A stretch of DNA of 37,934 bases from Acidimicrobiia bacterium (GTDB lineage Bacteria > Actinomycetota > Acidimicrobiia > Spongiisociales > UBA5794). The notes under the pieces are model-generated. The model saw nothing but the letters and a program-made list of their open reading frames with translations. It was not told the DNA's origin and ran no database searches. The translations under genes and the position numbers were made by a program. Location: positions 1 to 37,934 of the forward strand of contig JASJAX010000038.1 in assembly GCA_030066755.1 (NCBI GenBank). The letters run 5' to 3'. Positions 2,820-31,643 of the stretch are shown one piece after another. Each line of letters begins with the position of its first letter. Positions within the stretch are counted from its first letter, which is position 1.

Positions 2820-5800
2820 ATGCCGGTCGCTGCCGCCAGTCGCAGGCCTCGACTACTCGCCGGCGGGCTCGTCGTCGTCCTCGTGTTTGCGCTCGTGGCA
2901 GCAATGTGCATGTCGCGTGATGACACCGAGCCGACCACCACCGTCGCCGCTCCCTCGAGTCCGGCGGTACCGACGGCCGTTCAAGCACTTGCGCCACCAG
3001 GACAGCCGTTGTCGGTGCGCCTGAGTGCGGGCAGTGCCGTGAACCTGGTGGATCCAGGGCCGATCACTCTGGTCGAAGGTGAACCGCTCGACGACGCAAC
3101 CGTGGCTGCGATCCTCGAACGGTTGCCAGAGTGGGTCATCCCGCAGGACGACCGCCTGGAGTTCAGACGTCCCGCAGAGACCCTGGCGCCGCCTCGGTCC
3201 GGCGCCACTATCGACGTGCCCTTCCCCGCTCCCGGCGGCGAGCCGACCCCGACCGTCGCGGCCGGACCGCTCGAGGTGCTTCGCTTCCAGCCCGAGGGGC
3301 GCGTGGCCGTCGCCCCCTACATCAGCATCACGTTCAACCAGCCGATGGTGCCGCTCGCCACCGTTGGACAGCTCGACTCCGAGAACGTACCGGTCGTTGT
3401 GACGCCTGACCTGCCGGGCCGATGGGAGTGGATCGGCACCCGGACGCTCCGCTTCGACCATGATTCGGAGCTGATCGACCGGTTGCCGATGGCCACCGTC
3501 TACCGGGTCGAGATCCCCGCAGGTACCACCTCCCAGACCGGCGGCGAGTTGGCCGAACCGGTGTCGTGGACGTTCAAGACACCACCGCCGCAGGTCGAGT
3601 CGTTCCAGCCATCACACGATTCACTGCCGCTCGAACCCGTCTTCCTGGTGGACTTCGACCAACGCATCGATCCGGTCGCCGTTCTCGAGACGATCACCAT
3701 CACTACGGGCACAGTGGGCGGCGAGGCTATGGCCATCCGCCTGGCGACCGAAGAGGAGATCGCCGCCGACGAACGAGTCCGTGCGCGCGTCGACGGGCTG
3801 CTCGCCGACCGGTGGCTGGCGTTCCGAGCGACGGCTGCCTTTGCGCCAGACACGCAGATCAACATCCAGATCGGCCCCGGCACGCCATCCGCCGAAGGCC
3901 CCCGCGCCACGGCAAACGAACGCTCCTTCACGGCTCGCACCTACGCGCCACTACGAGTGAGCGATTCGTCCTGCCGTGGACGCGATCGCTGCGGCCCCGG
4001 TGACTCGCTGTCGATCAGATTCAACAACGTCCTCGAACTCGAGGGGTTCGACGCCTCCATGGTCGCGGTTGAGCCGGAGCCGGCGGGGTTGACCGTCCAG
4101 GCGTGGCGCGACACGATCTCGATCAGTGGCGCAACCATCGGTGGCACCACGTACACCGCGACGATCGACCCCACCCTCACGGACACGCACGGGCAGACCT
4201 TGGGCGGCAACCGAACGGTTGAGTTCAGAATCAACGATGCCCGCCCGTCTCTCAACCAGTTCAGAGATGAACTCATCACGCTCGATCCGCTGGTCCCCGA
4301 GCCAACACTGGCCGTCGCCAGTGTGAACCACGACGAACTGCGGGTTCGCGTGTTCCGGGTGGATCCGAACGACTGGGGCTCGTATGTGGCGTACCTGGAC
4401 CGACGCTGGGATGACCAGCCGCCTCCAATCCCGTCGAGTTGGGCGCAGGTGAGCGACGAGATCGTCGACACCAACTCGAAGTCGAACGAGCTGACCGAGA
4501 CGGCTGTCGACCTCAGCGATGCGCTCGAAGGTGATGTCGGCCACGTCGTTGTGCTCGTCGAACCGGTAGGACACCTGGCGGGTTTGACCCGCGACAGCGA
4601 CGACTACTGGCGCAACCAACCGGCGATCGTGTGGGCTCAGTCGACCGTCATCGGGGCCGCAGCTATCAGCGACGCCGACGAGATCGTTGCGTGGGCGACC
4701 GACCTCCGGAGCGGTGAACCACTTCCCGATGTCGAAGTTGGGTTCACGGGATATCGTGCGACTGCCGTCACCAACGGGGATGGGCTCGCCCGGGTCGAGC
4801 TGCCGCAGGACGATTCGATCAGGACCGGGCTTCTCGTTGCCCGGCGCGGGGACGACCGTGCGCTCATCGACGCAAACTGGCGCAGCAACGTCAGGGACGA
4901 CGAAGCCGTGTGGTACGTCTTCGACGACCGAGGCGTGTACCGGCCGGACGAAACCGTGCACGTCAAGGGCTGGGTGCGGCGGATCAGGTGGAGCGACGAC
5001 GCACAGTTGGCCGCTGTCACGGGTGATGCCACCGTCGGCTACACGGCAGCCGACAGTTCCGGCAACGAGGTCGCATCCGGCACCGTCGACCTCAATGCCT
5101 TCGGGGGCTTCGACTTCGAGATCGACGTTCCCGCCAACGCCAATCTGGGTCAGGCCACGATCGATCTCACCTTGCAAGGTGTCGCAGGTCAGGACCGACG
5201 CCACTCGCACCGCCTCCAGATCCAGGAGTTCCGCCGCCCCGACTTCGAGGTCGCGGTCCGTCCCGAGTCCGCCGGTCCGTACCTCGTCGGCGAGCCGGCC
5301 ACCGCTGCGGTGACGGCGGAGTACTTCGCCGGCGGGCCGCTCACAGACGCCGAGGTTCGGTGGGTAGTCAGAACACAACCGGCGACCTACTCCCCGCCGG
5401 GATGGGACGACTTCACGTTCGGTGTTTGGGTCCCGTGGTGGTCACGAGGAGACAGCGGCGGAAGCCAGTTCCGGGGCGGTGCGGGATTCGACGGCATCCC
5501 GGGTCGTTTGGAGCCCGACGAAGTCAAGACATTCTCCGGACGCACCGACGCCGGCGGGACCCACTACCTCCAGATGGACTTCGATGGTGACGGAGAGGGA
5601 TTGCCCACCACCGTGTCGGCCGACGCCACGGTGTTCGACGTCAATCGCCAGGGCTGGTCGGATGGCACCGACCTGCTGGTCCATCCCGGTGAGTTCTATG
5701 TCGGTCTGAGCAGTCGACGGACCTTCGTCGATCGAGGCGAACCGCTCCTCGTTGAGGCCATCGCAACGGACATCGATGGAACCGCCGTCGCCGGACGCAC

Positions 5801-8800
5801 GGTGATCGTGAAGGCCGGACGGACGGAGTGGCTCCTCATGCAAGGGCGTTGGGAGCAGGTCCCGGTCGCCGTCGAGACGTGTGTCGTCACGTCCTCGGAT
5901 GAGCCCGTCGAGTGCGAGTTCTCGGCCGAGGTCGGCGGGAGGTACCAGATCATTGCGACCGTCGCCGACAACTCCGATCGCACGAGCAAGACCGAAATCA
6001 CGCGCTGGGTGGGCGGCGACAACCGCAGGCCGGAACGGAACGTCGTTCAGGAGGAAGTGACGCTGGTACCCGACAAGCGGGAGTACACCCCCGGTGACGA
6101 CGCCGAGATTCTCGTTGCCTCACCGTTTGGTCCGGCCGAGGGCTTGGTCACGATCAGCCGCAACGGCATCGTGTCGACCGAACGGTTCACCATCGACGAC
6201 ACCAGCACCGTGCTCTCTGTGCCCATCGAGGACGGCTACATCCCGAACGTGCACGTCCAGGTCGACCTCGTCGGCACGACGGCTCGCACCGCCGACAACG
6301 GGGATCCGCTCCCCGGTGCCCCGGAGCGCCCGGCGTTTGCGGTTGGAGCGCTCAAGCTGTCGATCCCGCCACTGAGCCGCACCCTCACCGTGACCGCGGT
6401 GCCGAGCACACCATTGGCGGAACCCGGGAGCGACACCCAGGTGGAGGTGACCGTCACCGATGCTTCAGGAAACCCCGTAGACAATGCCGAGCTGGCCGTG
6501 GTCGTGGCCGACGAAGCGGTGCTTGCGCTCGGCCGCTACGAGCTTCCCGATCCAATCAGCGTCTTCTACGCATCGATCAACCCCCGTATCAAGAGCCGCT
6601 ACCTGCGCAACTCCATCGAACTCGTCAACCCACAGCTACTCACCGGCGACGACTCGTTCGCAACGGCAACGACGGTTCTGGCCAGCGGTCAGTTCGACGA
6701 ATTCACCTCGAGCTTCGACGGCGGATTCAGCAGGCAATCCCTGTCTGCCGACGCAATACCAACAGCAGCGCAAGGGCGGGAGGAGTCTGCCGAGGCCGGC
6801 ATCATCGGTGTACGGACTCGCTTCGATGCGCTGGCCGTCTTCGCACCCGATGTCACGACCGGCGTCGACGGCACCGCCACCGTCGACGTTTCCCTGCCGG
6901 ACAGCCTCACCCGCTACCGGGTGATGGTGGTTGCCGTCGAGGGCACCGATCGATTCGGCACCGCCGAGTCCAACATCACGGCCCGCCTGCCGTTGATGAT
7001 TCGGCCGTCTGCGCCGCGCTTCCTGAACTTCGGGGACGCCTTCGAGGTGCCGGTGGTGATTCAGAACCAGACCGATACCGATCTCGAGGTCGATGCCGTC
7101 ATCCAGACGTCGAACCTGACCCTCACCGCCGGTGCCGGGCGACGGGTCACCGTTCCGGCCAACGATCGCATCGAGGTGCGTTTCCCTGCGGCCGCCGAGG
7201 ACGCCGGAACCGCACGTCTGCGGGTTGCCGCGATCGGCGGGACGTACGCCGACGCCGCCAGCGTCTCGCTCCCTGTCTACACGCCGGCGACCACCGAGGC
7301 CTTCGCGACCTACGGAGTGGTTGACGACGGTGTCATCGCTCAGCCGGTCCTGACTCCCGAAGCTGTCGTCCCCCAATTCGGCGGATTGGAAATCAACACC
7401 TCGTCGACGGCGCTCCAGGCGCTGACCGACGCCGTCATCTACTTGAACGACTACCGGTACGCCAGTTCCGACGGTTTGGCGTCGCGCATCCTCGCCATCG
7501 CCGCCCTACGGGACGTCCTCGACGCGTTCGACGCCGACGGGCTGCCCCCTGCCGCCGAGCTCGCAGCCCGAGTCGACGGGGACATCACTGCGCTCCTGGC
7601 GCTGCAGACCGATCGCGGTGGTTTCGCCATCTGGCGCAGCTCCAACCAGGACGTGCCGTACCACAGCATCCAGGCCACCCATGCGTTGGTCGAGGCGAAA
7701 GCGAACGGCTACGCCGTGCCGGCCGATCGGCTGGAGCGGGCGTTGAAGCACCTGCGGAACATCGAGAACCGTATTCCCAAGGACTACAGCCAGAGGATGA
7801 AGGACACGCTCAGTGCGTACGCCCTGTACGTTCGTGATCTCGCCGGCGAGCGGGACGCCACCAAGGCCGGTCAGCTGTATGCACGGGCGGGGGACACGCT
7901 CAGCCTCGACGCCGTCGCCCGGTTGTGGCCGGTGCTCAATGACCCCGACGCCGACGCCGAGATCGAGCGGTTGTTCACCAACCGGGCAACCGAAACCGCC
8001 GGTGCCGCCACCTTCACGACGGACTACGGCGAAGACGCCTACTTGATCCTCCACTCGAACCGCCGCACCGACGGGATCATCCTCGACGCGCTCATTGCCA
8101 AGACTCCCGACAGTGATCTCATCCCCAAGGTCGTCGCCGGACTCCTCGGCAACCAAACCCGCGGTCGCTGGCACAACGTCCAGGAAAACTCATTCATTCT
8201 GCTGGCGCTCAACGAGTACTTCGACACCTTCGAGTCCACGACACCCGACTTCGTTGCGAGGATCTGGCTGGGCGACCTGTACGCCGCAGAGCATGTCTTT
8301 ACGGGGCGAACCACCGACCGCGACCTCACATCGGTCCCGATGGAGGAGCTGATCGATCAGACCGCCGGGGGCGCTGCGGACATCGTCGTCGCCAAGGACG
8401 GCCCGGGACGGCTGTATTACCGCCTCGGTCTGCGCTACGCCCCGGACGACCTCGAGCTCGATCCTCTCGACCGCGGATTCGTGGTGCAACGCACCTACGA
8501 AGCCGTCGAGGATCCCGACGACGTCACTCGGGACCCCGACGGGGCCTGGCGTATCCGGCCCGGCGCTGAGGTCCGGGTGCGAGTGACGATGGTCGCCGAC
8601 AGCCGGAGAACCCATGTCGCGCTGATCGACCCGATGCCTGCCGGCTTCGAATCGCTCAACCCTGCGTTGGCGGTGACCGCTCCCCTCCCGCCGGCCGCTT
8701 TGCGCGAAGACGCCGCCCGTCTGACGTACTGGTGGTGGCGGTGGTTCGAGCATCAGAATCTCCGCGACGACCGAGCCGAGGCCTTTGCGACCCTCCTGCG

Positions 8801-8945
8801 GGCCGGCACGTACGAGTACACGTACGTCGCCCGTGCGACGACGCCGGGGACCTTCATCGTGCCCCCGACGACGGCTGAGGAGATCTATGCGCCGGAGACC
8901 TTCGGTCGATCGGGTTCCGACGTCGTGATCATCGAGTCGCGCTGA
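2820..8945 (+). CDS. Alpha-2-macroglobulin family protein without the thioester motif
   Basis: Giant envelope protein of 2041 residues, longer than E. coli YfhM (about 1650). Bacterial macroglobulins are thought to trap proteases in the envelope. The N-terminus has basic residues, then a hydrophobic stretch (12-29). The Cys at 30 follows Met29, which breaks the lipobox rule, so I read it as a signal anchor. Order: Thr/Pro linker, Ig-like MG1 modules (about 140-260), MG2 with VYRPDETVHVKG (about 706-717), core A2M domain with FAPDVTTGVDGTATVDVSLP (about 1338-1357), alpha-toroid thioester-type domain (about 1525-1800), and receptor-binding-like C-terminus. Where thioester homologues have YxYGCxEQ, this protein reads YRYASSDG (1545-1552): Ser1549, Asp1551 and Gly1552 replace Cys, Glu and Gln. 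Covalent capture is therefore not possible. No pbpC partner is nearby. AGGAAGGA lies 11 nt before the ATG. Confidence 0.92.
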   Translation: MPVAAASRRPRLLAGGLVVVLVFALVAAMCMSRDDTEPTTTVAAPSSPAVPTAVQALAPPGQPLSVRLSAGSAVNLVDPGPITLVEGEPLDDATVAAILERLPEWVIPQDDRLEFRRPAETLAPPRSGATIDVPFPAPGGEPTPTVAAGPLEVLRFQPEGRVAVAPYISITFNQPMVPLATVGQLDSENVPVVVTPDLPGRWEWIGTRTLRFDHDSELIDRLPMATVYRVEIPAGTTSQTGGELAEPVSWTFKTPPPQVESFQPSHDSLPLEPVFLVDFDQRIDPVAVLETITITTGTVGGEAMAIRLATEEEIAADERVRARVDGLLADRWLAFRATAAFAPDTQINIQIGPGTPSAEGPRATANERSFTARTYAPLRVSDSSCRGRDRCGPGDSLSIRFNNVLELEGFDASMVAVEPEPAGLTVQAWRDTISISGATIGGTTYTATIDPTLTDTHGQTLGGNRTVEFRINDARPSLNQFRDELITLDPLVPEPTLAVASVNHDELRVRVFRVDPNDWGSYVAYLDRRWDDQPPPIPSSWAQVSDEIVDTNSKSNELTETAVDLSDALEGDVGHVVVLVEPVGHLAGLTRDSDDYWRNQPAIVWAQSTVIGAAAISDADEIVAWATDLRSGEPLPDVEVGFTGYRATAVTNGDGLARVELPQDDSIRTGLLVARRGDDRALIDANWRSNVRDDEAVWYVFDDRGVYRPDETVHVKGWVRRIRWSDDAQLAAVTGDATVGYTAADSSGNEVASGTVDLNAFGGFDFEIDVPANANLGQATIDLTLQGVAGQDRRHSHRLQIQEFRRPDFEVAVRPESAGPYLVGEPATAAVTAEYFAGGPLTDAEVRWVVRTQPATYSPPGWDDFTFGVWVPWWSRGDSGGSQFRGGAGFDGIPGRLEPDEVKTFSGRTDAGGTHYLQMDFDGDGEGLPTTVSADATVFDVNRQGWSDGTDLLVHPGEFYVGLSSRRTFVDRGEPLLVEAIATDIDGTAVAGRTVIVKAGRTEWLLMQGRWEQVPVAVETCVVTSSDEPVECEFSAEVGGRYQIIATVADNSDRTSKTEITRWVGGDNRRPERNVVQEEVTLVPDKREYTPGDDAEILVASPFGPAEGLVTISRNGIVSTERFTIDDTSTVLSVPIEDGYIPNVHVQVDLVGTTARTADNGDPLPGAPERPAFAVGALKLSIPPLSRTLTVTAVPSTPLAEPGSDTQVEVTVTDASGNPVDNAELAVVVADEAVLALGRYELPDPISVFYASINPRIKSRYLRNSIELVNPQLLTGDDSFATATTVLASGQFDEFTSSFDGGFSRQSLSADAIPTAAQGREESAEAGIIGVRTRFDALAVFAPDVTTGVDGTATVDVSLPDSLTRYRVMVVAVEGTDRFGTAESNITARLPLMIRPSAPRFLNFGDAFEVPVVIQNQTDTDLEVDAVIQTSNLTLTAGAGRRVTVPANDRIEVRFPAAAEDAGTARLRVAAIGGTYADAASVSLPVYTPATTEAFATYGVVDDGVIAQPVLTPEAVVPQFGGLEINTSSTALQALTDAVIYLNDYRYASSDGLASRILAIAALRDVLDAFDADGLPPAAELAARVDGDITALLALQTDRGGFAIWRSSNQDVPYHSIQATHALVEAKANGYAVPADRLERALKHLRNIENRIPKDYSQRMKDTLSAYALYVRDLAGERDATKAGQLYARAGDTLSLDAVARLWPVLNDPDADAEIERLFTNRATETAGAATFTTDYGEDAYLILHSNRRTDGIILDALIAKTPDSDLIPKVVAGLLGNQTRGRWHNVQENSFILLALNEYFDTFESTTPDFVARIWLGDLYAAEHVFTGRTTDRDLTSVPMEELIDQTAGGAADIVVAKDGPGRLYYRLGLRYAPDDLELDPLDRGFVVQRTYEAVEDPDDVTRDPDGAWRIRPGAEVRVRVTMVADSRRTHVALIDPMPAGFESLNPALAVTAPLPPAALREDAARLTYWWWRWFEHQNLRDDRAEAFATLLRAGTYEYTYVARATTPGTFIVPPTTAEEIYAPETFGRSGSDVVIIESR

Positions 8946-27098: not shown

Positions 27099-29636
27099 AT
27101 GAACACGCACCGGCTCTCCATCCGGACCCGGCATCGGCGGCGCATGCTCGTCATGCTCGCTTTTGCATTGGTGGCGCTGTCGCCCGGCACGGCGTCCGGT
27201 TCCATCACGACGGTCGGTTACGAGCGCGCCCAGGCCACCCTGCAGGGGCCCGCGGCGGGGATCTACGACTACACCCAAGGTTTGGCGGCGTCCTGGTCGG
27301 CTACAGCCGAGTTCGATGCGGGGACACACAACGGCACTACCGCCCAGGACGTCGCCGACGCTCTCACCCTGGCAAGGATCGGGCCGGCGGGCGTCTCCGC
27401 CCCTGATCCGGCGACGCCGTGGTGGAACGCAGACTGGAACACCCGAGAATGCTTCGCCGTCGACCACGCTGCGGGCACGACGTCGGTGACGGAGTACCCC
27501 GTGCAAATCCCCTGGTCACCGGGGTCTCTGGCATCTGCCGGCCTCCTCCAGGGTGATTACGGCGATGTACGAGTGATCGCTTCGGATGGGGTCACCGAGC
27601 TGCCGATCTGGTTCGAAAACACCACAACCAGCTGGGTTCAGGTAGACGACATCCCCGCCGGCGGCGCCACCTCGTTCTGCGTGTACTACGGCTACTCGGC
27701 AGGCGTCGCCGCAGTGCCGGCCAACCACGGGCAGGCGCCCGTCTTCACCTACAGCTCGCCGAAGCCCGTGTACTACACCGTCTCCGGCGCCTACACCGGC
27801 GCCCAAACCGTTGCCGTCGCGAGCTACGTCGACGCCAACACGATCGAAATGGACGGCACGTCGGGGACGCTCACTGCAACGATCGATGACGGGGACCGCA
27901 CAACCTTTGCCGGCAACACGTCGACCAGCGAGTACCGGGTCACCGGGCCGATCGCTGCCCGCGGCATCGGCAACGGCCTCGACACGCTGATCCCCGTTTC
28001 GTGGGCGGGTACGCGGTTCGTCGTCCCGTCGAACCGCGAGGACGGTGTCACCAGCCAGCTGCTGTCGTTCTATGCGCCATTCGGCGGGAGCACCGTCACG
28101 CTCTACGCCGGCACCGAACCGGTCGCCATCGGCAGTGTCGCCGTCCCTGGTGGCGGAGGCGCTACCTGGGTCGAGACCGCAGACGAGATCTCCACGGGCG
28201 AAACCCTGATCATCGAGGCGACCACCCCCGTCCTCGCCCACCACGCAACCACCAACGGAGAGGACGCCACTGCGTTGCACCCCGTGCGATCGATGACCTG
28301 GTACGGCGTCTCCTCGACGGGGCGTGTCGGCGCCGACGGCGAGGACGCCACCGGCACCGCGACGGATGTGCTCGTGACGCGCTCCTCGTCCGGCGGGTCG
28401 ACCACGCCGCTGTTCCGCGGGGAAGAACTCGTGTTGGCAGGGACGCCGGGCGGAGGCGGTGCGGACGACGGCATCGCGGTGAGCGCCGGCGGATCTGCCG
28501 CCGGCCGCGCCGTCGGTGCCCTGTCGCAGGACGATGGTGACGGACGTGATTCGATCACGTTCTTGCCGCGCACGGCGCTCGGCGCTCGCTACCTGATCGT
28601 CACGAACAGCGAGTACATCGCCGCCGCCTGCCCGGCGGCGTCGACGTCGTTCACCGTCACCGACGGTGCTGGTGCAACTTCGTCGTTCTCGTGCGCAGGC
28701 GGCAGCGTCGGCCACGGCCTACTCACCAGCAATCTCGACGTGACCGCGACCCGTGCGATCGAGATCGCGTCGGCCGGGGCCGACTTCTTCCTGGCCTACG
28801 AGGACCGTTCGACCAACGACGAGACCAACGTGCTGGGCATGAAACAAGGGCGCCAGTACGTGTGGCCGTCTCCCTCCACTGTCGCTGCCGGTGCCGCCGA
28901 AGGTCTCTTCCCGGTCACAGGTACCTGGACCAGCGCCACATTCGATACCGGAACCGGCACCGACGTCTTCGGGGAGATCGACTTCTCGGGTGCCGTCAAC
29001 TCCGGTGTGACCGACCTCGAGGTCCGGATTGCCACGAGTGACACCGATCCCCCCTCCGCCTTCGTCGGGCCGGACGGCACGGCAACCAGCGCCTGGTCAC
29101 TGGCCGACCTGCCGTCGGTCCTGGATTTCTCCCACGACGGCGACCGGTACCTGAGGGTCAGAGTGGACCTGTCGACGAGCGATCGGCTGAACGAGACGCC
29201 ACGGCTCGACGCCGTCGTGGTCGACAACCAGCTCCCCCTCGCCGACCGCGCACCCGGTAGTCGTGCGTCGTTGACCGTGATTGGTTCGGTTTCGGCACAA
29301 GCCACCTACCTGCTGCGTGTTTCGACCGACAACGCAACGCTGTCGGGGAGCTCCGCCGAGTTGATCGGCATCAGCGGCACCAACCTCGCCAACCTGGCAC
29401 CCGGGACTCTCCGGTTCGTCAACGCCTCCGGGCTCGATGTCGTGCAATGGTCGACCGACGGCACACCGGGCACTCCGGTCGCATTCTCACCGGTCCAGGG
29501 GCACTCGCTGGTGCTCGATCACACCTCGGTCGGCCCCGGCGTCGTCGATGTCGACTTCACATGGAGCCTCAATGTGGGCGGTGGGGCGTCGATATTCGTC
29601 CAAAGCGATCTCACCGTGGAAATCACGACACCATGA
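27099..29636 (+). CDS. Large secreted DUF2341 protein
   Basis: 845 residues. A very basic N-region (RLSIRTRHRRR), a hydrophobic core (MLVMLAFALVAL) and SPGTASGS give a Sec signal peptide. Domains: N-terminal segment (about 35-105); DUF2341 (about 108-196) starting WWNADW and ending FCVYYGYS; a long beta-rich, Gly/Ser/Thr-rich middle; a beta-sandwich (about 608-710) of the kind that often accompanies DUF2341 (TWTSATFDTGTG to ETPRLDAVVV); and a C-terminal beta domain ending DLTVEITTP. No LPXTG or other anchor is seen, so it is secreted or held by a partner. Few cysteines. Start: ATG 27099 has AGAAGGA about 13 nt upstream; an in-frame GTG at 27072 would add 9 residues. Its stop overlaps the next ATG (ATGA). 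Confidence 0.85.
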   Translation: MNTHRLSIRTRHRRRMLVMLAFALVALSPGTASGSITTVGYERAQATLQGPAAGIYDYTQGLAASWSATAEFDAGTHNGTTAQDVADALTLARIGPAGVSAPDPATPWWNADWNTRECFAVDHAAGTTSVTEYPVQIPWSPGSLASAGLLQGDYGDVRVIASDGVTELPIWFENTTTSWVQVDDIPAGGATSFCVYYGYSAGVAAVPANHGQAPVFTYSSPKPVYYTVSGAYTGAQTVAVASYVDANTIEMDGTSGTLTATIDDGDRTTFAGNTSTSEYRVTGPIAARGIGNGLDTLIPVSWAGTRFVVPSNREDGVTSQLLSFYAPFGGSTVTLYAGTEPVAIGSVAVPGGGGATWVETADEISTGETLIIEATTPVLAHHATTNGEDATALHPVRSMTWYGVSSTGRVGADGEDATGTATDVLVTRSSSGGSTTPLFRGEELVLAGTPGGGGADDGIAVSAGGSAAGRAVGALSQDDGDGRDSITFLPRTALGARYLIVTNSEYIAAACPAASTSFTVTDGAGATSSFSCAGGSVGHGLLTSNLDVTATRAIEIASAGADFFLAYEDRSTNDETNVLGMKQGRQYVWPSPSTVAAGAAEGLFPVTGTWTSATFDTGTGTDVFGEIDFSGAVNSGVTDLEVRIATSDTDPPSAFVGPDGTATSAWSLADLPSVLDFSHDGDRYLRVRVDLSTSDRLNETPRLDAVVVDNQLPLADRAPGSRASLTVIGSVSAQATYLLRVSTDNATLSGSSAELIGISGTNLANLAPGTLRFVNASGLDVVQWSTDGTPGTPVAFSPVQGHSLVLDHTSVGPGVVDVDFTWSLNVGGGASIFVQSDLTVEITTP

Positions 29637-30307
29637 CCTCGTCGCACGAAACCAGCGTCTTCCCCGAGCACATGCCGGACATCCCTCTGGATGACCTGCC
29701 GGTCCCTCTTGTCCCCGGCGGTTTCTGGGATCCCGAAGACCAACACCCGCCCACCATCGAACCCGAGCTCCCCGACTACGAGTCCATGGTGCGCAATGCG
29801 CTGATCGCCTGCCTCGCAGTGCTCGCATCGAAGGTCGGATGGATCGTCGTCGTCGCCAATGTCCAGGGCATCCTGGTCTCCGTGCGGCTGTGGGGCGGGT
29901 TCTTGCCCTATCTGGGCATGGACGTCACCGACGTCGCCACCGCCGGCAACAACACATTCGCCACCATCGTCACGGTGTCGACGATCGGCATGGGCTTCAC
30001 CGCCGTCCTGCTGATGGCGTGGCCGATGATCCGGCCTGGCCTGCCTCGGCTCGATGTGCTCGGTCGTTCGGTTGCGATCGCCGTGGTGCTCGAGACGTGG
30101 ATCTTCGAGGTCTTCCGTGAAGTCTTCGACCGCACGACCCTCATCATGCGGTGGGACCTGGCCTGGATCACGTTGGTCGAACTCCTGCTCGCAGCCGCCC
30201 TCCTCTTCTTGACCCTCAAGCAACCACGCAGCGTGGCCGATATCACTGAGAGAAGCACGGATGCGCTGCCCCATGACCCACAAGTGATCCTGGAGGACAC
30301 ACCATGA
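29633..30307 (+). CDS. Four-TM membrane protein coupled to two secreted proteins
   Basis: 224 residues; family not recognised. About 50 N-terminal residues are acidic and Pro-rich (PLDDLPVPLVPGGFWDPED), probably cytoplasmic. Membrane segments lie near 55-76, 108-130, 145-161 and 176-195, followed by a polar tail. Between TM1 and TM2 the loop has LPYLGMDVTDVATAGNNTF. TM3-TM4 is joined by EVFREVFDRTTLIMRWDL, with several charged residues. No signal-peptidase (SipW), sortase or transporter motif is visible. Both ends overlap neighbouring genes by 4 nt, so it is made together with the DUF2341 protein and the small secreted protein. An assembly or anchoring role is only inference. Confidence 0.8.
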   Translation: MTSSHETSVFPEHMPDIPLDDLPVPLVPGGFWDPEDQHPPTIEPELPDYESMVRNALIACLAVLASKVGWIVVVANVQGILVSVRLWGGFLPYLGMDVTDVATAGNNTFATIVTVSTIGMGFTAVLLMAWPMIRPGLPRLDVLGRSVAIAVVLETWIFEVFREVFDRTTLIMRWDLAWITLVELLLAAALLFLTLKQPRSVADITERSTDALPHDPQVILEDTP

Positions 30308-30933
30308 ACATGCGCATGACGCGCCGAGGAGCAGGCATCCTCATCGCGCTGATGCTCATTGCGGTCCCGGCAGCGGCCGCCGTGATGACGCAGAACTTCC
30401 AATCCGCCACCATCGACATCAATGGACCTTGCTTCGACGTGACGGCAGGCGACGACGCAAGCTCGCCCACCAACTTCGTCCAGTTTGCGACGGCGACTGT
30501 GTCGACGGGTTCCATCGATCTTCGTCAGGAGTCGCTGACAGTCGCCGGACACGTGGGCAATCGCGCCATCTACAGCGAGGTTGCACGGTTCGCCAACGGA
30601 TGCGGAGCGGATGCGAGCGTGGAGTTCTTCCCGATCAACGACCCCAGCGGTACTCCGGCCTTCGTTCCGGACTTGACCGATCCGGTCTGGGACGACTTCA
30701 CCATCAGCTTCTACCTCGCCAACACCGGGTCGCCTGGTGACGTGCTCACGAGCGGCGACTGGGACGAACTCCTGCGGGTCGAGGCCGGTTTGGCCACAAC
30801 TCCTGACACCGGCATCGTGGTGGACGGTGCGACACGCGCCTTGGCCGTTGTCATCGACTCCGACGCAAACACGACACTGCCGATAGCCACGGATCCGGTG
30901 CTGCGCTGGACCGCCCAGATTCTCTACCCCTAG
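30304..30933 (+). CDS. Small secreted protein, third gene of the DUF2341 operon
   Basis: 209 residues; no family recognised. MNMRMTRRGAG plus ILIALMLIAVPAAAA is a signal peptide with cleavage near residue 25. The mature part is acidic, beta-rich, with two cysteines (43 and 100) that could bridge. The opening NFQSATIDINGPCFDV has a faint likeness to the early NTFxAGTLDL strand of TasA/camelysin fibre proteins, but there is no SipW peptidase beside it, so I do not claim homology. It may be the bulk subunit of a surface structure whose larger partner is the DUF2341 protein. The ATG overlaps the preceding stop; a 14-bp hairpin follows. Confidence 0.78.
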   Translation: MNMRMTRRGAGILIALMLIAVPAAAAVMTQNFQSATIDINGPCFDVTAGDDASSPTNFVQFATATVSTGSIDLRQESLTVAGHVGNRAIYSEVARFANGCGADASVEFFPINDPSGTPAFVPDLTDPVWDDFTISFYLANTGSPGDVLTSGDWDELLRVEAGLATTPDTGIVVDGATRALAVVIDSDANTTLPIATDPVLRWTAQILYP

Positions 30934-30958
30934 ACCGATCTCACCTCCAGGATCGCCA

Positions 30959-30990
30959 CTCAGCGGCGGGGCATCAGCCTCGCCGCTGAG
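30959..30990 (+). terminator. Terminator of the DUF2341 operon
   Basis: A 14-bp stem (30959-30972 with 30977-30990, one G-T pair) and loop ATCA, 25 nt after the third gene's stop. It is followed by ATTTG, a poor U-tract. Confidence 0.7.
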
Positions 30991-31004
30991 CATTTGGGCG
31001 GCGG

Positions 31005-31019: not shown

Positions 31020-31643
31020 ATGCTCCCTCTCCCCCGCCAGCGTCTCGGTCGCCGGTTCACCCAACTCCTCATCGGGCTCGTGGTATTCGGCTTCGGTATC
31101 GCCCTGATGGTCGTTTCCGATCTCGGGCTCTCGCCGTGGCAGACCCTCCACCAGGGAGTGGCGGAGCGGACCGGCTTGGCCATCGGCACCGTGACGATCC
31201 TCACCGGCATCGTGGTCCTGCTTCTCTGGATCCCGCTGGGTGAGCGCATCGGCCTGGGGACGATCCTCAACGTCGCCATCATCGGCAACGCGCTCAATCG
31301 CAGCCTCGACCTCCTTCCCGAAGAGTTCGCCAGCCTTCCCATACGCTGGCTCGCCATGCTCAGCGGCGTGTGCCTGATCGGCCTCGGAACGAGCCTCTAC
31401 ATCGGCGTGAGGATGGGCTCCGGCCCCCGCGACGGCGTTATGACCGGCTTGGCGAGGCGCGGCATCAACATCGGCGTCGTCCGTACCGGTATCGAGGTGA
31501 CGGTGCTCGCGATCGGCTGGTCGCTCGGAGGCACGGTCGGCTTTGGGACGATCGCCTTCGCCGCAGGCATCGGCCCAATCATCGCTTACTTGCTCCCGAA
31601 ACTGACGGTGATGCCGATCGTTCCGGTAGCGAGTAGCGAGTAG
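31020..31643 (+). CDS. YczE/YitT-type integral membrane protein
   Basis: 207 residues with about five membrane segments. The family hallmark is the glycine-rich run SLYIGVRMGSGPRDGVMTGL (about 126-145) and VSDLGLSPWQTLHQG near the first TM. These match the YczE/YyaS/YitT group, whose function is unknown; some members act in regulation of antibiotic synthesis or transport. The last codons, GTAGCGAGTAGCGAG then TAG, are part of the heptamer array at 31626-31653, so the C-terminal VASSE is repeat-encoded. Leaderless start at 31020 assumed. Confidence 0.85.
   Translation: MLPLPRQRLGRRFTQLLIGLVVFGFGIALMVVSDLGLSPWQTLHQGVAERTGLAIGTVTILTGIVVLLLWIPLGERIGLGTILNVAIIGNALNRSLDLLPEEFASLPIRWLAMLSGVCLIGLGTSLYIGVRMGSGPRDGVMTGLARRGINIGVVRTGIEVTVLAIGWSLGGTVGFGTIAFAAGIGPIIAYLLPKLTVMPIVPVASSE

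Follow-up and report, generated by a model that had tools for sequence, protein, structure and literature searches.

A three-gene operon of an Acidimicrobiia bacterium raises the question of what two secreted proteins and the membrane protein encoded between them might build at the cell surface. The operon lies in a window of 37,934 nucleotides (nt), the whole stretch of DNA analyzed here (contig JASJAX010000038.1 of GenBank assembly GCA_030066755.1, our contig C137 of the 3.79-Mb, 211-contig assembly). Its open reading frames ORF1, ORF2 and ORF3 (845, 224 and 209 amino acids, aa) span positions 27099-30933, all on the forward strand. An initial annotation, made from the sequence alone, had proposed a surface fibre, adhesin or secreted assembly with its own membrane partner, and had ranked the operon as a candidate undescribed system. 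The first part of this proposal is supported computationally, by the co-conservation of the genes and the predicted fold of ORF3. The second part did not stand: because ORF3 is predicted to share its fold with archaeal bundling-pilus and thread subunits, the system is not wholly undescribed in kind and appears to be a variant of donor-strand-complemented fibres. Overall, we consider it probable that the operon encodes a thin surface fibre of this type, with ORF3 as the repeating subunit, ORF1 as an adhesin-bearing end subunit and ORF2 as a membrane anchor or assembly factor.

Neither ORF2 nor ORF3 had initially been assigned to a recognised family, which still holds for ORF2, whereas ORF3 can be recognised by its profile and predicted fold. 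When a six-sequence ORF3 profile was compared with all PDB sequences, the sole match was 7UEG, the bundling pilin AbpA of Pyrobaculum calidifontis (E 0.019). With a nine-sequence profile, 7UEG was again at the top (E 8e-4, profile positions 18-192) and the next match had an E of 0.099. A template-free AlphaFold2 model of ORF3 is a beta-sandwich with a mean predicted local distance difference test score (pLDDT) of 70, and a Foldseek search with this model ranked 7UEG first among 350,542 chains (E 1.3e-6, template-modelling score 0.56/0.63). Using VIA-align, 7UEG (Z 11.3, 164 residues aligned, 3.7 Å) was followed by the Sulfolobus thread 7PNB (Z 9.8, 157 residues aligned), then by a chain at Z 7.7, and the TasA fibre 8AUR reached Z 6.5. 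Sequence profile and structure search therefore agree, and ORF3 is predicted to have the jelly-roll-like beta-sandwich fold of AbpA and of the thread subunits. Fold matches to Eph-receptor, sialidase and BIRC6 chains represent general beta-sandwich background, and a hydroxyethylthiazole-kinase match, under the cut-off and in one member, was attributed to chance. The mature N-terminus of ORF3 contains a QNF motif that is invariant in nine loci, and Cys43 and Cys100 are conserved. The sole stretch of the model with a pLDDT below 50 is residues 25-40, the mature N-terminus. A conserved motif directly after the cleavage site, together with this low confidence, is compatible with a free strand, but is not proof of one.

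The initial annotation had given signal peptides to two of the products, and by inspection both ORF1 and ORF3 begin with an N-terminus of the general secretory (Sec) type. Their mature N-termini resemble each other. In eight of nine genomes, ORF1's own mature N-terminus was the 16-residue stretch most like the mature N-terminus of ORF3, and in the same eight genomes this likeness was greater than that of all 51 control secreted-like N-termini (most module paralogues were left out of the controls, and one that remained is the lone ORF1 of genome G327). As examples, ORF1 starts with AAVITQSF... and ORF3 with AAIITQNF... in locus L026, and the corresponding mature starts are ARIFIQNHMEGS and ASIIVQNFMEAD in locus L028. 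When the ORF1 and ORF3 profiles were aligned with hhalign, the similarity was confined to the N-terminal segment of ORF1 (91.5%; other parts each <1%). Further along the protein, the DUF2341 domain recognised initially was found again above the Pfam gathering score (26.8 bits against 23.4), with a match in all 5 ORF1 members scanned at E up to 1. No match to PDB sequences was obtained with the ORF1 profile up to E 10. In the ORF1 model (pLDDT 67), the C-terminal region seems to combine with an N-terminal strand into a single sandwich, for which the nearest structures are FmlH, FimH and CfaE (Z ~9-9.7). Since those parts are modelled with modest confidence, this resemblance to fimbrial adhesins and pilins is only suggestive. 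Foldseek matches to whole ORF1 were mostly chance matches to long multidomain chains and were set aside.

The initial annotation had staked its proposal on the three genes being conserved together, and they are. In a first survey, which covered the window's own genome and 59 relatives (60 in all), one other genome, G042 from a different family, was matched by all three proteins, with the genes adjacent and in the same order. Among 395 genomes of the class, ORF1 was detected in seven (G000, G098, G099, G042, G302, G323 and G327), plus one DUF2341-only match. Exactly the same seven had strong ORF3 matches, with two marginal ones besides; ORF2 was also present in all seven (weak in G327, where it adjoins ORF3), again with two marginal matches. 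A profile scan of genome contigs with an ORF1 alignment recovered nine Acidimicrobiia loci, while the single ORF1 sequence used as the query gave no match. ORF2 and ORF3 lie beside ORF1 in all nine loci except L029, for which the ORF3 of the same genome is on another contig. Gene orders of 1-2-3, 3-2-1 and 2-3-1 were seen, mostly with overlaps or gaps of <55 nt. The named relatives with the module are metagenome-assembled genomes of Acidimicrobiia, and in a phylum sample of 396 genomes ORF3 was found in the window genome only. A scan of viral contigs revealed no ORF3 relative, and therefore no sign of a phage origin. Overall, the module is rare and patchy and, because its genes co-occur across genomes, functionally linked.

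ORF2 is fast-evolving, its relatives sharing ~19-36% identity with the window protein. Their layout remains mostly hydrophobic, and a loop of the LPY/IPY type is conserved (LPF in two). Hydropathy indicates four hydrophobic segments in ORF2, in line with the membrane-bound middle protein first described. The Pro-rich acidic tail of that description is present in the window, where the 53 N-terminal residues include 12 acidic, 0 basic and 11 Pro, but it is not universal, being short or missing in some relatives. Searches of Pfam, NCBIfam and the PDB returned nothing useful for ORF2, the profile against PDB sequences being empty up to E 10; matches to DUF5527 and SpoIIGA were rejected as weak and scattered over single members. 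The main evidence that ORF2 may serve the fibre is its constant company with ORF3.

Taken together, the genes themselves, their co-conservation and linkage, the fold match of ORF3 and the N-terminus common to ORF1 and ORF3 support a model of how such a fibre could form. ORF1 and ORF3 would be exported by Sec, and a signal peptidase cut would free their N-terminal strands. The cut is likely to be made by ordinary signal peptidase I, because there is no SipW in the operon and no SipW-like gene over the cut-off in four of the six module genomes tested (G000 and G302 have such genes elsewhere). ORF3 would then polymerise, each mature N-terminal strand (A-h-x-h-Q-N-F...) entering the open beta-sandwich of the next ORF3. 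Since ORF1 offers an ORF3-like N-terminal strand, we provisionally place it at one fibre end, which is the polarity assumed in the model; it would give the first strand to ORF3, and further ORF3 subunits would add by strand exchange. The DUF2341, middle and C-terminal beta domains of ORF1 may be exposed as a head that resembles an adhesin, and ORF2 may hold the fibre base at the membrane or help assembly there.

Sulfolobus threads are held together by N-terminal donor strands, and bundling pili have been described likewise (PMC9715654). AbpA is like ORF3 in profile and predicted fold, and probably also in that a beta strand forms the N-terminus left after a Sec signal peptide. In contrast to AbpA, ORF3 is bacterial, with ~10% identity and a conserved Cys pair, and is linked to a DUF2341 protein and a protein with four transmembrane segments. 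In S. acidocaldarius, the putative cap Saci_0405 is encoded beside the thread subunit Saci_0406 and is thought to give its N-terminal strand at a fibre end (PMC9715654), in parallel with the role proposed for ORF1. However, Saci_0405 folds like Saci_0406 and has no predicted signal sequence, whereas ORF1 is signal-bearing, 845 aa long and multidomain. In the Bacillus TasA/TapA/SipW system, the filament is started by TapA, in which the donor-strand sequence of TasA recurs (PMC9674648, PMC10151520). The general fibre principle would be the same, and the strand common to TapA and TasA parallels that of ORF1 and ORF3, weakly in the window copy; the comparison of ORF1 with TapA concerns the strand only. 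The Bacillus tasA operon includes SipW (PMC9674648). The module operon is set apart from it because it has no SipW gene; it encodes the four-segment membrane protein instead, and has no camelysin match in Pfam or NCBIfam. Chaperone-usher pili (FimH, CfaE, CsuA/B) also follow the donor-strand principle, and the terminal sandwich of ORF1 may resemble their pilin or adhesin domains. Among the neighbours read in the module loci, no PapD-type chaperone or usher genes were recognised (whole genomes were not searched). Neither ORF1 (ending in ...TVEITTP) nor ORF3 (...RWTAQILYP) has the LPXTG-type C-terminal sorting signal with a hydrophobic tail that marks sortase-built pili.

The study of the Sulfolobus threads found no assembly machinery (PMC9715654). 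We tentatively suggest, as a bolder possibility, that the ORF2 family is a dedicated membrane platform on which donor-strand fibres are assembled or anchored with no need for a chaperone, usher, sortase or SipW, and that the same strand joins ORF1 to them as a giant tip adhesin with a signal peptide. If this is true, ORF2 would offer a tangible candidate for the assembly machinery that is missing for TasA- and bundling-pilus-type fibres. The module bears on how TasA, bundling-pilus and thread-type fibres start, are anchored and gain a functional end. It is a self-contained trio, in which the membrane protein always accompanies the subunit and the N-terminal strand of the large adhesin-like protein is similar to that of the subunit. 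With three genes, the assembly of such fibres, their anchoring and the display of a tip can be put to the test. The module would also extend archaeal-pilin-like fibres to Acidimicrobiia, few members of which have been cultured.

Several observations weigh against a donor-strand fibre. The ORF3 model is of middling quality and its identity to AbpA is low, as given above. No member of the ORF3 family matches any Pfam or NCBIfam model, TasA/camelysin included, although a relative as divergent as AbpA is not expected to match the curated TasA/camelysin models. The ORF1 model is weaker than that of ORF3, with its pilin-type matches in the less certain parts, and the membrane role proposed for ORF2 comes from operon position and topology only. 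In two genomes, an ORF2-ORF3 pair is found without an adjacent ORF1. The persistence of this pair also suits an arrangement in which ORF1 and ORF3 do not polymerise and their similar N-termini are tags that dock on ORF2, which would display one of each as a surface receptor or binding complex; a common N-terminal tag and a dedicated membrane partner likewise fit the co-conservation. We nevertheless regard this arrangement as unlikely, since the two structures closest in fold to ORF3 stand clear of the background and both belong to donor-strand fibres that polymerise, and the position of the tag is that of the donor strand in those fibres. A further point against the proposed fibre concerns the window copy itself, where the ORF1 N-terminus is the second-best match to that of ORF3, at 13 points, and is equalled by 2 of the 51 controls. 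This weak likeness, together with the presence of ORF1 alone near argGH in one genome, would suit real ORF3 fibres alongside an ORF1 that has only the operon in common with them and acts apart as a secreted adhesin or matrix protein, the N-terminal likeness being incidental or a signal-peptidase preference. Such a separation seems quite improbable to us, because in eight of nine genomes the mature N-terminus is the best ORF1 stretch and stands above every control, and because the profile comparison places the likeness at the ORF1 N-terminus only. Finally, membership of ORF1 in a type IV pilus or archaellum-like system, suggested by a DPANN locus (L039) with an ORF1 middle-domain protein beside FlaH/I/J-like and other archaellum-type genes (Arch_flagellin, KaiC-type ATPase, T2SSE and T2SSF), is very improbable and already largely excluded by gene context. 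In the loci read, none of the genes next to the module was recognisable as a pilus ATPase or a prepilin. Both ORF1 and ORF3 begin with a Sec signal peptide and a beta strand rather than a pilin helix, and ORF3 was not found in the archaeal genomes tested.

The features of the operon are presented in Table 1. The overlapping three-gene unit of the initial annotation was confirmed, both joints overlapping by 4 nt (29633-29636 and 30304-30307). The organisation of ORF1-3 goes beyond chance, since relatives also show such 4-nt overlaps and all three genes are present together in the same seven class genomes. The guanine-cytosine (GC) content at third codon positions is 0.79-0.83 in each of the three genes. 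The strong hairpin reported at the end of the operon was also recovered, 23-64 nt 3' of ORF3 (-42.2 kcal/mol for the 77-nt stretch, z -5.0, no shuffle as good). It lacks a T-run and is for this reason missing from the terminator scan list; this GC-rich hairpin probably marks the operon end.

Table 1. Positions of the operon features in the window.
Feature	Position	Strand	Source
ORF1, secreted multidomain DUF2341 protein, 845 aa; proposed end (tip or initiator) subunit and adhesin	27099..29636	+	
ORF1 mature N-terminal segment SITTVGYERAQATLQG, proposed donor strand, resembling that of ORF3	27201..27248	+	
ORF1 DUF2341 (PF10102) match, residues 153-200	27555..27698	+	Pfam
ORF1 middle region, residues 216-592, unnamed conserved domain common to DPANN archaeal surface proteins	27744..28874	+	
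ORF1 companion beta-sandwich region, ~residues 606-712	28914..29234	+	Inspection; strands in model; no Pfam match
ORF1 C-terminal region, ~residues 713-845; putative Ig-like pilin/adhesin-type sandwich with the N-terminal strand	29235..29633	+	Model, moderate confidence
ORF2, membrane protein with four transmembrane segments, 224 aa, no known family; proposed anchor or assembly factor	29633..30307	+	
ORF2 N-terminal Pro-rich acidic tail, residues 1-53, variable among relatives	29633..29791	+	
ORF3, secreted beta-sandwich protein, 209 aa, predicted AbpA/thread fold; proposed repeating fibre subunit	30304..30933	+	
ORF3 mature N-terminal segment AVMTQNFQSATIDIN, proposed donor strand	30379..30423	+	
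Strong GC-rich hairpin after ORF3, no T-run	30956..30997	+	

The module lies between gat genes and dapE in the window (gatC/dapE slot), G042 and G098; in G099 the dapE flank is seen and the opposite flank runs off the contig. This slot is empty in most relatives checked. In many relatives that lack the module, gatC comes immediately after dapE or is separated from it by a YczE-like gene, with gaps of mostly 49-820 nt (maximum ~1.3 kb). Among these genomes are G010 and G049, which share a genus with module carriers. This distribution would be explained most simply by a single ancestral insertion that was then lost repeatedly. A YczE/YitT-like membrane gene (31020-31643, named by eye, no Pfam match) stands between ORF3 and dapE in the window. 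As it is a common dapE neighbour in relatives without the module, it was not considered part of it.

Parts of the module also occur elsewhere. ORF2-ORF3 pairs without ORF1 at L076:4040-5382 and L077:7394-8610 each adjoin a gene for a BrkB/YihY-family membrane protein. The middle region of ORF1, an unnamed domain of ~350 residues, is also present in giant surface proteins of Woesearchaeota and Aenigmatarchaeota (L035, L036, L038 and L039), and in L039 it follows LamG. Two giant open frames with DUF2341, 4006 and 3532 aa long, run off contig ends at L123 (G000:C76) and L078 (G029:C122), respectively. In L122 (G000:C82:24500-33500), a gene at 4664-5314 on the reverse strand is TasA/camelysin-like by eye, with the N-terminus AAFSDTTVNPNNDFAAGDVVL, and beside it, at ~4147-4533 on the same strand, is a SipW-type signal peptidase over the NCBIfam cut-off; this pair may be a second donor-strand system, distinct from the ORF1-3 operon. 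Elsewhere in the window, outside the operon, an open frame of 2041 aa occupies positions 2820-8945 on the forward strand.

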